This document shows, one piece after another, positions 48,586-56,439 of a DNA stretch of 64,000 nucleotides (the first letter of the stretch is position 1; each line of letters begins with the position of its first letter). The notes under the pieces are model-generated. The model was not told where the DNA came from. It did no database searches and was given only the letters and a program-made list of their open reading frames with translations. Both the position numbers and the translations under genes were made by a program. Origin of the DNA: Heliocidaris erythrogramma (lineage: Eukaryota; Echinodermata; Echinoidea; Camarodonta; Echinometridae). Where the stretch lies: assembly GCA_025617745.1 (NCBI GenBank), contig CM046858.1, positions 40,469,850 to 40,533,849 on the forward strand. Direction: 5' to 3'.

Positions 48586-49515
48586 CCTGTTAATACAATA
48601 TAGAATTTGTTGAGGATTTAATTTTACACTTAACAGAACCTTTGGAAATGTAATTTTACACCTAAATTAACAGATATCTGACCATTAAAACTTTCCTACT
48701 GAAAAGAAAGAATTGCAAATAAGAAAAATTGATATTCTTATTGGATGCAAGATTCCAATTAAACATCACACCATTAATTAAAGCTATAAATAAATCTAAC
48801 ACAATTATGGCAAATTATATTCCAATACACAATTAGAAGACTGTAGATTTCAGATAAACATTGGAAATCTATATACATGTATGTACAATACATGTAATGT
48901 AAGCCAACAGCATCTGTGAATATTTACAACTTGTCTGCAAATACATGTAGGTTAGGCATTATTTTGTTCATCTGGATTACATGCCTACTAATGTTAACAA
49001 ATTGATTGTTACGTGGAGAAGGTTTACGGTTCACCATGTGTGTTGGTAGGAGGAAAGGGAAAATAGGAAATTAGAAATGGATAGACGAGAAAGGATGACA
49101 AGAGAGAAAATAAGAAATATTCTTTCGTGACAATGGGTGAAGTCCTGAAAAGGACTGTAAACCAATAGGAAGGTTTACTGGTTCACCAGGTGTATGGATA
49201 GGTGAAGGGTGATGGATGATCTGTCCATACACCTGGTGAACCAGTAAACCTTCCTATTGGTTTACAGTCCTTTTCAGGACTTCACCCATTGTCACGAAAG
49301 AATATTTCTTCTTTTCTCTCTTGTCATCCTTTCTCGTCTATCCATTTCTAATTTCTTATTTTCCCTTTCCTCCTACCAACACACATGGTGAACCGTAAAC
49401 CTTCTCCACGTTATAACCTCCACCATGCAAACCTTCAAAGATCATCAAATTGATTGTTGTTCTTATTCTAAAAGTTAAAGATAAAAAATAAATGAAAAAA
49501 TAAATCTGTACTCAC
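48586..49515 (-). other. Probable intron of the minus-strand gene
   Basis: On the minus strand a donor AGAG/GTGAGT at 49515 and an acceptor TATTAACAG ending at 48587 bound a 930-bp intron. It contains the fold-back 49011-49446. Confidence 0.45.
49011..49446. mobile_element. Fold-back A: inverted arms, tail, 12-bp target duplication
   Basis: Arms of about 185 bp (49011 to about 49195 and about 49225-49410) are nearly perfect reverse complements; the left begins ACGTGGAGAAGGTTTACGG. After the right arm there is a 36-bp non-repeated tail ending CATC. The element is flanked by AAATTGATTGTT at 48999-49010 and 49447-49458. No protein is encoded. Confidence 0.85.
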
Positions 49516-49640
49516 CTCTAAAGAGGCAATTAAGAGACGAGAATAGAGCTTGCTAAAGAACACTGCAGTCTCCAACTTGCTACAAAGCTCAATGAACAGA
49601 TCCACTCTGGGGTGTGGTATGTTATGTTATGTAATGGCAA
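49516..49640 (-). other. Probable 5' untranslated exon of the minus-strand gene
   Basis: The sequence up to the donor AGAG/GTGAGT has stops in all relevant frames. The upstream limit is uncertain. Confidence 0.35.
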
Positions 49641-49761
49641 CACTGACCACTTCAAAAGGTCATTAAAGGACCAAACTCTTTGTTTTTACCCCTTAGTCAC
49701 ACAGTAAAAGAATTCTGTACCATAGCCTGTGAAATACATATTTATATCACAATTTTATGTT

Positions 49762-49980
49762 GTTACTCACGTTACACCATCGTTACTCACGTTACATTGT
49801 TACTCACGTTACAATTTTTGGGCCTCATTTATTATACCATGACATGTACATGTATACAGCTCCTACCCTTTTTTCATATTAGGTACAAGGAGTATGAAGA
49901 GAATTTCCATTGGCAAATTTTGAATGGAAGGGAATATTAGGAAATAAAACTTTTTCATTTTTTCCGTTACTCACGTTACA
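49762..49980 (+). repeat. GTTACTCACGTTACA repeats, right cluster
   Basis: Four exact copies (49762, 49782, 49799, 49966). Confidence 0.85.
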
Positions 49981-50458
49981 TGGGTTTGAGCAGTCGGATG
50001 GCATGCTTTATACCCATTCATGGGAATGGAGGCCATTTTTTTCTCTTTGGCAACTCAAAACTAATGTCCCATACATTCTAAAAATCAACTTAAACAACTG
50101 CTTACCATTCTTTAATTATGTATGAATTGAAATGAAATCTTTAGGTAAATATTTACTGTTTTTCTCAATAAAAGTGTAAGCTAAGTTCAAAGTTCAATAT
50201 TTGCAATTCTTGATGCAAATTTTGGACAAATTTTACTGTTCCGTTTGCCCAGAAGTATACTGGACAAAATTAGGTGGGTGACAAGTTCCAAAATAAGAAT
50301 TTATTTTTTCACCCCATGACACCCATCTCATGGAATTGCCCAATAGCTGAATGCAGTTGAAATTAATGCCAATATGTGCACAGCACGCTTCATACTGGAG
50401 GTTGACATGCAAGGATAACTTGAAAGGAGTGGTCACATTAATGTCAAGTTCACACGAA

Positions 50459-50640
50459 CAGGGCCCTGTTTCATAAAATTTACAATTTACAAATTTACAA
50501 TTTACAAATTTACAATTTACAAAGTTACAATAATTGGATAAATAAGCTACTGAAATCCTTGAATCTGTTTGGCTAATAGCAACTTTGTCATAGAAATGGG
50601 GCAGTTGTTAATAGTCATTATAAAATGGGTTCAAGAATCA
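50459..50640. mobile_element. MITE, GGGCCCTGTTTCATAAAA family, with a short tandem repeat
   Basis: Same centre (GGCTAATAGCAACTTTGTCA) as 25204-25345. Expanded by an AATTTACAATTTACAA run at 50478-50526; the right end is decayed. Confidence 0.7.
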
Positions 50641-50981
50641 ATGTAGCCATCCTGATTAGTCAAATAACACCACGTGACCACACAAAAAAAAAGTGATAAC
50701 ATACGGCAAAAAGGCTATAAACCACAGATGAGCTGCGCGTACGCGTACCTCTGGTGCGTGCAAACTTAAAACGCAATGAAATCACGTAGTTTAATTGTCA
50801 TTTTAGCACAGGGATTACATGCGCGCACTGAAACGCGCATGACTTTTGTTGGCTGCGCTTCTGTGATGTCATCCAGGAAAGCAAATGGCAGCCTCCATGA
50901 CTGTGCGACTCTTGGCGTTTCTATGGGGTTCGTAACCATTTTTACAGACTTCATAATCATATTGCCGATCCGTTTTATAAT
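50641..50981. other. Spacer with CGCGC words
   Basis: Contains GCGCGTACGCGTACC and ACATGCGCGCACTG. No gene supported. Confidence 0.4.
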
Positions 50982-51150
50982 ACTATTAATATATGGTTGT
51001 GAGTTTGTGCGTTAGTGCGATCTGGCAACACGCAGGTTTTTATCGTTGTGTCAAACACACTCGGCTTGCGCCTCGTGCGTATAGTACACCACGATAAAAC
51101 CTTTGTGTTGCCAGATCGCACCAGCGCACTCCCAACCATGTATTAATACA
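50982..51150. repeat. Fold-back, arms about 70 bp
   Basis: TATTAATATATGGTTG, GTGCGATCTGGCAACAC and GGTTTTTATCGTTGTG at the left are all inverted at the right. The loop is about 30 bp. Confidence 0.85.
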
Positions 51151-54192: not shown

Positions 54193-54513
54193 TAGTAGGG
54201 CAGCTCTAGGTCGCACCTTTAATGAAAAATTTTGTTATCATTACCCTAATGGGACAAATGTGACCTATATATATGGTTGTTTGGGGGCAGATTCATGAAT
54301 TTGAAAGTACAATGTCAGGTCAAGGAGTTAACTCTTTGGTCAGGTGTTGATACTTTATGCTTAATTTAAATACCTGATTATTGCAAGATTCAGAATGTTT
54401 CAAGTAGTATCAGTACACCTGCATTTTAACTTCAGTTGATATCTGTTTCGCTGCTACTGTTAACTCTATTGATATAGGATTAAAGGTCTTTGCCCCACAA
54501 AATCAAGTTCACA

Positions 54514-54745
54514 ATAGAGTACCGAAGTGTGACGTCATACCAGCCAAGTTGTCAAGGTTGCTGGTTCCAAACAATTATGTGCTGAACAATGGCGTGTTGA
54601 TCACACCAGCGCCAGACACTGAATTTACCCTGCTCCAGCACGTTGCTTGAATAATTATGCGGTGAACCTCATGCGCGGGCATTGTTGTTAGGAACCAGTA
54701 ACCTGGACGACGAGCGAATATGACGTCAGCACTTCGGTACTCTAT
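54514..54745. mobile_element. MITE with ATAGAGTACCGAAGTG ends
   Basis: ATAGAGTACCGAAGTG then TGACGTCAT at the left, ATGACGTCA then CACTTCGGTACTCTAT at the right. Inner TTGCTGGTTCC/GGAACCAGTAA are also inverted. 232 bp. Confidence 0.85.
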
Positions 54746-55199
54746 AGTTTTCTGGCACTGTTGAAAAGTTACTCACTCAATACTATTCTTTTCATGGTCA
54801 GTGCTATTAGCAAGACAAGTGCTTCATATTGCATGCTATTCATTTCATATTTATCCAAAATAGTAACATGCACATTATCTATGATAGTTCCGATTGTTAA
54901 AAAGTAATGAATTGCTTTAATTTAAACAGTACACTTTACATGTGCACATGTATATTAAATAATCAGGCTTCAAACTACTTCTGAGCCAATTAGAGAGATG
55001 ATGAAATATTTAAGTGCTTTAACTTTGAGAGTTAAGACAATACATGCATGTAACATTCTTTGCTATTCCTTGTTTCTTTTTCTCACAAATGTAATATGCC
55101 ACATGCATATTATAGGACATCATTCCCTGAAGCTCTGGTTTATTCATTTAGGCCTAGATATATAGTAGATCTGCTAGGTGTTTTATAAAAAAAGCAATG
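54746..55199. other. Spacer, nothing recognised
   Basis: AT-rich, no structure seen. Confidence 0.4.
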
Positions 55200-55730
55200 A
55201 CACAAGTTATAACTCTATCAAACTCAGGTTTTCAGATTGTAAATTTGAAGGACATCAAATTTATTTGAAGTAAGTTTTATGACATTTCTCTGAATTACTT
55301 TTCTTACAAAAGTGCTTTGAATATTTAATTAGATTTTCCCTTTTTGTAAAATCTGTGCATATCATTAATTAATTCAGAACACAACAATTTCCATTGTGTA
55401 TTGCAGCTGTAATTTCTGCCAGCCTTTTGCTATTCAGTGTTATTAATGATTCATGACTCTGGGTTAAAAATGTGTTCTGGAATTTCAGCTGCAATGCACA
55501 ATGGCAATACTTGTTCTGAATTAATTACTGATACACGCATATTTTGTGGCCTTAATTTTTCAAAAAGTGACAATCTAATCAAATAGCCAGTGAGAGCATT
55601 ATTGCAAGATAAGTATTCAGAGAAATGTCATAGAATTTACTCCAAAATATATTTGACATCCTTCAGCTTTACAATGTGAAAACTTCAGTCTGATACGAGT
55701 TATAACTTTTGAGTTATTAACGATCAAAGT
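55200..55730. repeat. Fold-back element, second copy of the 14.84-16.69 kb family
   Basis: ACAAGTTATAACTC, GAAGGACATCAAAT and TTTATGACATTTCTCTGAAT at the left are inverted at the right. The core TTATTAATGATTCATGACT matches the 16.4-kb copy. Here the left arm is uninterrupted. Confidence 0.75.
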
Positions 55731-55975
55731 GTCAATTTTTTTTTAAATGCCTAGTACATGTACAAATATAAGTTGTACATGTAGTTTGAATAAAAGCCCA
55801 TCGTGTGTTGGTATAGGAAATAGGATGTAGCTTTCAATGGTCTACCAGCATTTGTGACAAATATCTTTTGTTATTTTTGTTCTACTGTTTATAGAGAAAG
55901 TGAGAACTCCAGTATGAAATTCAAATCTTGGTACATAGTACTTGTAATTCCAGGATGCTGTACAAATTTGTTGTT

Positions 55976-56429
55976 TACGTTGAAGAGGTTTACGGTTCAG
56001 CATGTTTGTAATTCTTGAAGAGGACTGTTGAGGGTTGGAGAAGGATAGGAGAGAAGAGCGAGAGAGAGAATGAAGACGGACAGTCAAGCTGTCCGGAATG
56101 TTGAGCACCTTCACCTCCTTTAGTCCTTTTCAGGGGGAGCATTTCATCAAGCGTTTTGTCAGTGATTTTTACTAACAAATTTGCTCTCAGCCAATCAGAT
56201 GCTAGGATTTCAGTAGCTTATAACAGTTGTCGGTAAAAATCACTGACAAAGCGTTTGATGAAACGCTCCCCTGTTCTCTCTCTCTCGCTCTTTTAAATCT
56301 CTTCTTCTCTCCTTGCTCTACTATCCTTCTCCAACCCAACAGTCCTTTTCAGGACTTACGCACATGGTGAACCATAAACCTCATTAAAGTTATCTATGCA
56401 AACATCCACCTTTATTAAAAGAACATCAG
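55976..56429. mobile_element. Fold-back B: relative of fold-back A, split by a MITE
   Basis: Arms start with ACGTTGAAGAGGTTTACGG-like text and include GAGGACTGTTGAGGGTTGG and its inverse. A tail of about 38 bp ending GAACATC follows the right arm. ATTTGTTGTT flanks the whole at 55966-55975 and 56430-56439. It is interrupted by 56134-56271. Confidence 0.75.
56134..56271. mobile_element. MITE, GGGAGCATTTCATCAAGCG family, nested
   Basis: Ends GGGGAGCATTTCATCAAGCG and CGTTTGATGAAACGCTCCCC, centre CTCTCAGCCAATCAGATGC. It sits inside fold-back B, so it is younger. Confidence 0.85.
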
Positions 56430-56439
56430 ATTTGTTGTT

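Follow-up and report, generated by a model that had tools for sequence, protein, structure and literature searches.

Two protein-less fold-back inserts in sea urchin DNA with the plan of a Penelope-like insertion

A stretch of 64,000 nucleotides from the sea urchin Heliocidaris erythrogramma (GCA_025617745.1, contig CM046858.1, positions 40,469,850 to 40,533,849 of the forward strand), called the window below and numbered from its first letter, contains the fold-backs A and B together with one Penelope-like copy. All three are built on the same plan: inverted arms, a tail at one end, and a direct repeat beyond the tail. By analogy with Penelope insertions, A and B could well be inserts that lack an open reading frame (ORF) and consist of a pair of inverted pseudo-long terminal repeats (pLTRs), belonging to a related Penelope family unseen in the window. 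The two fold-backs consist of the following parts.

48998-49458: A, whole insert including the flanking repeats; protein-less fold-back with a tail on one side
48998..49010 (+): left flanking repeat CAAATTGATTGTT of A, read as a target duplication; exact 13-bp direct repeat of 49446-49458
49011..49201 (+): left arm of A, inverted and pLTR-like, 191 bp, 3 differences from the right arm
49202..49220 (no strand): hairpin loop of A; 19 nt separate the arms, and 15 nt stay unpaired in the predicted structure
49221..49411 (+): right arm of A, 191 bp
49385..49411 (+): ATG and 9 codons (MVNRKPSPR) at the outer end of the right arm of A; frame open through the tail
49412..49445 (+): one-sided tail of A, 34 nt, unpaired in the fold; gap left 0, right 34
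49446..49458 (+): right flanking repeat CAAATTGATTGTT of A, 13/13 against the left copy
55963-56439: B, whole insert including the flanking repeats; protein-less fold-back with a tail on one side
55963..55975 (+): left flanking repeat CAAATTTGTTGTT of B
55977..56133 (+): left arm of B, matched part 55977-56070
56134..56271 (no strand): separate repeat with its own inverted arms in the centre of B; copies or partial copies at 38014, 31297, 25240 and 50542
56272..56390 (+): right arm of B, matched part 56302-56390
56364..56390 (+): ATG and 27 nt at the outer end of the right arm of B; frame broken by TAA at codon 8
56391..56426 (+): one-sided tail of B, about 36 nt, aligned with the tail of A
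56427..56439 (+): right flanking repeat CAGATTTGTTGTT of B, 1 mismatch

The original prediction described A and B as fold-backs with long inverted arms, and this was borne out by the 191-bp arms of A with their 3 differences and by the B arms, whose matched parts (94 and 89 bp) agree at 77 positions and differ by 12 mismatches and 4 indels. It also assigned to them a tail of 36-38 bp on one side only and a flanking repeat of 10-12 bp. The one-sidedness of the tail and the presence of the repeat were found as described; the lengths had to be revised, the tail to 34 nt in A, which fits that element better, and about 36 nt in B, and the repeat to 13 bp (13/13 in A, 12/13 in B). The longest exact run shared by CAAATTTGTTGTT and CAGATTTGTTGTT is 10, and it is to this run that the gaps of B, 1 on the left and 39 on the right, were measured. 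Folded as single-stranded RNA, A reached -359 kcal/mol where shuffled sequences averaged -111 (z -37.6), with the arms paired over nearly their full length and the 34-nt tail single-stranded in the predicted structure; the corresponding z for B was -16.6. The longest stop-to-stop frames overlapping A and B are 60 and 95 aa, and a protein search with the 60-aa frame of A returned no homologue.

Two further features of the arms and of the centre of B were observed. The terminal motif of the A arm occurs again at the hairpin head (AGGTTTACTGGTTCACCAGGTGTATGG; 49171-49202 and 49020-49050), so both ends of the arm are similar. The repeat nested in B is interspersed in the window: sequences with the core GCTCTCAGCCAATCAGATGCAAGGATTTCAGTAGCTTATAACAG, or close to it, lie at 56134-56271, 38014-38136, 31297-31351, 25240-25302 and 50542-50597, with inverted ends in some copies.

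By the likeness of their sequences A and B form one family, whose arms are related at their outer ends. BLAST joined the left ends, flanking repeat included, at 83% over 48 nt (E 9e-8), and the right ends were also joined. A 21-nt end motif, searched with up to 3 mismatches, has 4 matches in the window against 0.02 expected, and these sites are the outer arm ends of A and B, one copy having 2 mismatches. The alignment of the right ends together with the tails scored better than all 2000 shuffles. The statement of the original prediction that the arm sequences differ is thus correct for A and B against the Penelope-like copy, but not for A against B, and what it missed is that the two are one family lying in almost the same 13-bp sequence.

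The sequence flanking A and B is near-identical, of the form CAAATT(GA or TG)TTGTT. The pattern CA[AG]ATTNNTTGTT occurs 4 times in the 64-kb window, exactly at the four flanks of A and B, and on both strands only 8 sites match the A repeat at 11 or more of its 13 positions, 3 of them flanking A and B. At the two positions that distinguish A (GA) from B (TG), the left copy equals the right copy within each element. This paired agreement would not be expected of repeats that belong to the elements of a diverged family, and it favours target duplications at a preferred site; we infer from the sequence of two copies that the 13-bp repeats are probably of this kind. Of 4000 placements drawn at random, 28 had a longest exact direct repeat of at least 12, 82 of at least 10 and 1136 of at least 7, so that the 13-bp repeat of A is unlikely to have arisen by chance. 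The exact 10-bp run of B is weaker when taken alone (2% by chance) and gains weight from its likeness to the repeat of A.

The Penelope-like copy of the window has the following parts.

15059..15070 (+): left flanking repeat GATTATAATTTT, 12 bp
15071..15096 (-): one-sided tail, about 26 nt, on the left side only; the frame of the ATG at the arm end runs through it
15097..15235 (-): inverted pLTR; a hammerhead-like core lies around 15120-15160
15229..16077 (+): remnant of a Penelope-like ORF, with homology to the end of the reverse transcriptase (RT) and to the endonuclease part
16082..16220 (+): right pLTR; a hammerhead-like core lies around 16157-16197, and the ATG is at 16195
16221..16232 (+): right flanking repeat, 12 bp

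This copy (15059-16232) is truncated. The same plan had been claimed for it as for A and B, and rightly: its tail of about 26 nt stands on the left only, its arms align over 143 bp at 97% identity, and its direct repeat is 12 bp long. The ORF remnant has 802 homologous proteins at E up to 1e-3; among the matches listed, the best 120 of the 802, all carry PF26215 and some also GIY-YIG (PF01541) or RVT_1. The remnant itself gave no Pfam match above threshold, and tblastn with the homologues detected 15229..16077 as the sole Penelope-like locus in the window. A hammerhead-like core adjoins the ATG in both of its pLTRs and is absent from the Rfam listing.

The likeness in plan between A and B and the Penelope-like copy counts in favour of a Penelope-type origin. 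As for a pair of pLTRs, A has one (191 bp) and B has one in part (94 and 89 bp matched); a tail of the 30-40 bp kind is found at one outer end of both (34 and about 36 nt), and outside the tail both have a probable target duplication (13/13 and 12/13 bp direct repeats). The distance from the ATG to the junction of arm and tail is 27 nt in A and B, which are homologous at the ATG and were therefore counted as one case, and 26-27 nt in the Penelope-like copy read outward. The frame that starts at this ATG is open through the tail both in the Penelope-like copy (MNLLNVIFK, then FCSTNRLF in the tail) and in A (MVNRKPSPR, then YNLHHANLQRSSN); the left arm of B translates at the ATG as MLNRKPLQR. 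The first bases adjoining the tail are (C/A)AAATT in A, in the left copy of B and in the Penelope-like copy, and CAGATT in the right copy of B.

The mismatches between the arms were counted by hand on the strand that has the tail at its 3' end, and the mismatches of A at 49008 (a G.T) and 49010 were left out because they lie in the flanking repeat, outside the arm. There were 8 G.T and 1 A.C (2:0 in A, 4:1 in B and 2:0 in the Penelope-like copy; one-sided binomial 0.02), whereas 13 other fold-backs had 34:32 (p 0.07 for the comparison). An excess of G.T is expected if a folded RNA was copied, and the bias backs an RNA intermediate, as a suggestion only.

Several observations weigh against assigning A and B to the Penelope type. 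The spacing of the ATG was noticed post hoc, and with an ATG frequency of 0.024 per position the probability of hitting position 26 or 27 is about 0.05. The open frame of A is weak evidence, as 467 of the 1535 ATGs in the window (about 30%) have 20 open codons after them; in the right arm of B the frame is broken, and the substitutions separating the codons of A from those of B are nonsynonymous, with no codon-like conservation. In sequence, neither the tails of A and B (1941 and 1942 of 2000 shuffles scored as well) nor their whole ends (780 and 533 of 2000) resemble those of the Penelope-like copy. No Penelope protein accompanied by the A/B ends was seen, and the one Penelope locus of the window shares no sequence with A or B. 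The family is known from two copies only, and the likeness of the A and B tails taken alone is modest, 86 of 2000 shuffles scoring as well. Finally, no hammerhead-like core was found in A or B with our own descriptor, which marked both arms of the Penelope-like copy and also matched at two further sites of the window; Rfam reported no hammerhead in A, B or the Penelope-like copy. A hammerhead ribozyme in the pLTR is common among Penelope-like elements, though not universal. The original proposal that A and B are derivatives mobilised by Penelope-like machinery is partly supported: its analogy of plan (arms, tail and repeat) holds and gains the ATG at 27 nt, but no Penelope family with these arms or tail was found in the window, and the ribozyme is lacking. 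The observation behind it was right, and is somewhat stronger than first stated.

The window is rich in inverted repeats, with 71 pairs, and among the 25 longest several come from one array. Direct repeats were sought in the flanks of 19 inverted-repeat entries, as far as 60 bp out. These entries were A, B, the Penelope-like copy, the repeat nested in B and 15 others, some of the latter overlapping within a single array. Of the 16 that remain when A, B and the Penelope-like copy are set aside, none combined a one-sided tail with a repeat of at least 10 bp. A repeat of comparable length, 12 bp, occurs in one of the 16 (11458-12159); it lies symmetrically 48 bp outside both arm ends and within a larger inverted array. 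At 16227-16568 a 9-bp repeat stands at unequal distances, 13 and 29 bp out, and at 31428-31660 a 7-bp repeat is 21 bp out on one side and flush on the other. Other structures seen in the window are the large inverted-repeat array at 10702-12235, which includes 408-bp arms of 100% identity (10934-11341 / 11485-11892), a small palindromic element at 12607-12728, whose arms of 58 bp are flanked flush by the 9-bp direct repeat CGCGGTATG, and at 13057-14080 a remnant like a long interspersed nuclear element (LINE), comprising the end of RVT_1, with a stretch resembling (AAAGT)n after it.

Of the explanations considered, we rank ORF-less Penelope-type inserts ahead of a LINE-driven hairpin, then a truncated DNA transposon, then a recombinase element. 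A and B might be hairpin retroposons resembling short interspersed nuclear elements (SINEs), in which the RT of a LINE recognises the 3' tail of a self-folding RNA and leaves a long target duplication. The predicted hairpin of A with its 34-nt single-stranded 3' end and the 13-bp flanking repeats agree with this, and a LINE-like RT remnant does lie in the window (RVT_1 at 13057-13881). It is nevertheless unlikely: the tails of A and B end in no poly-A or simple repeat, the sequence after the RT remnant (TTAAAGTAAAGTAAAG) is by eye unlike these tails, this comparison being with a single LINE-like remnant, and the inverted-pLTR plan and the position of the ATG are left unexplained.

Long arms, the absence of any ORF of note and the wealth of inverted repeats in the window would also suit ordinary fold-back DNA transposons, of the Mutator/Foldback or P/Galileo kind, whose left end had lost its outermost 35 bp. 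We hold this for rather improbable, as the direct repeat stands right against the left arm, the one supposed to be truncated, in A and B alike, with a partly conserved tail on the opposite side. The ends of A and B are not symmetric and flush with the duplication, as the terminal inverted repeats of DDE transposons are; both have the one-sided tail, whereas the small element at 12607-12728 has a flush 9-bp repeat. A duplication of 13 bp is moreover longer than usual for DDE elements. The least probable alternative, and one we regard as quite doubtful, is that the 13-bp repeats are the elements' own, a site-specific recombinase inserting a circle at a near-identical site with half-sites ACAA and TTGT around 5 bp. 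The flanks of A and B are indeed nearly one sequence with imperfect dyad symmetry (ACAA-N5-TTGT), and the scarcity of similar sites (just the 8 counted above, 3 of them at A and B) speaks for it as well. Against it, the two differences between the flanks of A and B match left and right within each element, as target duplications would, and no recombinase gene was recognised among the only 4 ORFs tested against Pfam.

If A and B are of Penelope type, each would consist of a single pLTR, 191 bp long in A, present twice and joined head to head, with an optional tail at one side. A related Penelope family, acting in trans, would have copied them in with its RT and GIY-YIG endonuclease. Reverse transcription may start at two sites about 35 nt apart, the arm end and the tail end; self-priming at the head would give the fold-back, and the endonuclease would cut at ACAAATTNNTTGTT with a 13-nt stagger. 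The candidate target of the driver protein would carry ACAAATTGATTGTT. Judged by this analogy, A and B would work like Penelope insertions, which falls short of establishing their membership in the class. A more tentative extension is that they represent an equivalent of SINEs with Penelope as the driver: hairpin RNAs that encode no protein and are composed of two head-to-head pLTRs plus a tail, which would spread in trans and insert sequence-specifically at ACAAATTNNTTGTT. Were A and B of Penelope type, such tiny inserts, keeping only pLTRs and tail, would show which sequences suffice for mobility; a family of the A/B type would be a many-copy record of target choice, and some fold-back repeats filed as DNA transposons would be retroelements.

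Inside both elements lies a stem-loop like that at the 3' end of histone mRNA.

49266..49281 (+): stem-loop AGTCCTTTTCAGGACT in A, mirrored at 49141-49156 (-); RF00032, 15.2 bits
56341..56356 (+): stem-loop AGTCCTTTTCAGGACT in B; RF00032, 12.0 bits

It is the 16-nt core of a 19-mer, ACAGTCCTTTTCAGGACTT, common to A and B. Both scores are below the RF00032 gathering score of 34, and a histone 3' function for AGTCCTTTTCAGGACT is unsupported. In A the stem-loop is followed by ACCCA and ACGAAAGA, which we take to resemble a cleavage site and a U7-binding element. Among the literature matches listed for histone stem-loops in transposable elements, no paper contained the stem-loop term. Further Rfam matches over A and B, to snR86 and several microRNA families, were all below gathering and were taken as effects of the long hairpins.

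Comparison with known systems began with searches of texts and contigs. The sequence letters of A and B were not found in the paper texts searched. Titles and abstract openings among the matches listed, in a collection that leaves subscription journals mostly outside its coverage, gave no description of non-autonomous Penelope elements or of fold-backs moved by Penelope. In viral_contigs, two single matches to degenerate patterns look like chance, with no arm or tail after them; three other patterns had no match in viral_contigs and two had none in genome_contigs, both poor in animal DNA. The fold-back DNA transposons Foldback, Tetris and Galileo have, going by the matches listed for them, long inverted arms as A and B do. 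Their duplications are shorter and of fixed length, and a one-sided tail is not expected of them. The Penelope-like copy of the window shares with A and B the plan and nearly the same spacing of the ATG; it differs in the sequence of arm and tail, in the hammerhead-like core in both arms and in its internal ORF remnant.

Among published elements, and as far as the consulted parts of the papers go, a curation guide names inverted pLTRs and short 3' extensions as Penelope features (PMC8969392), and the movement of Penelope-like elements and the origin of their inverted pLTRs and tails are described as little understood (PMC3846280, PMC11167929). Poseidon of Anolis has, like A and B, a tail that extends 30-40 bp past the end of the pLTR; in Poseidon this tail is explained as the stretch between two RT start sites. 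Poseidon carries a hammerhead motif, whereas our own scan found none in A or B. In Drosophila Penelope the tail is needed for recognition by the endonuclease (PMC11167929). The Penelopes of Adineta vaga are covered in the excerpts of PMC3846280: their pLTRs are 181-218 bp long, and one inverted pLTR may bear a tail of 31 bp; the ORF starts within one pLTR, which includes its first 12 codons, or 22 when the tail is counted; the inverted repeats are mostly head-to-head, the duplications are 8-10 bp and the targets AT-rich. The same source reports that the pLTRs can mobilise unrelated DNA in trans, and that non-coding sequence has been captured between solo pLTRs, with duplications. A and B differ from these elements in having no ORF and no known driver, in the loop of A, which is only 19 nt, and in 13-bp repeats that lie in almost one sequence. 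They are like them, on the evidence of these excerpts, in their inverted head-to-head pLTRs, the arm of A being of the published size, in the tail on one pLTR and in the flanking repeats, read as duplications.

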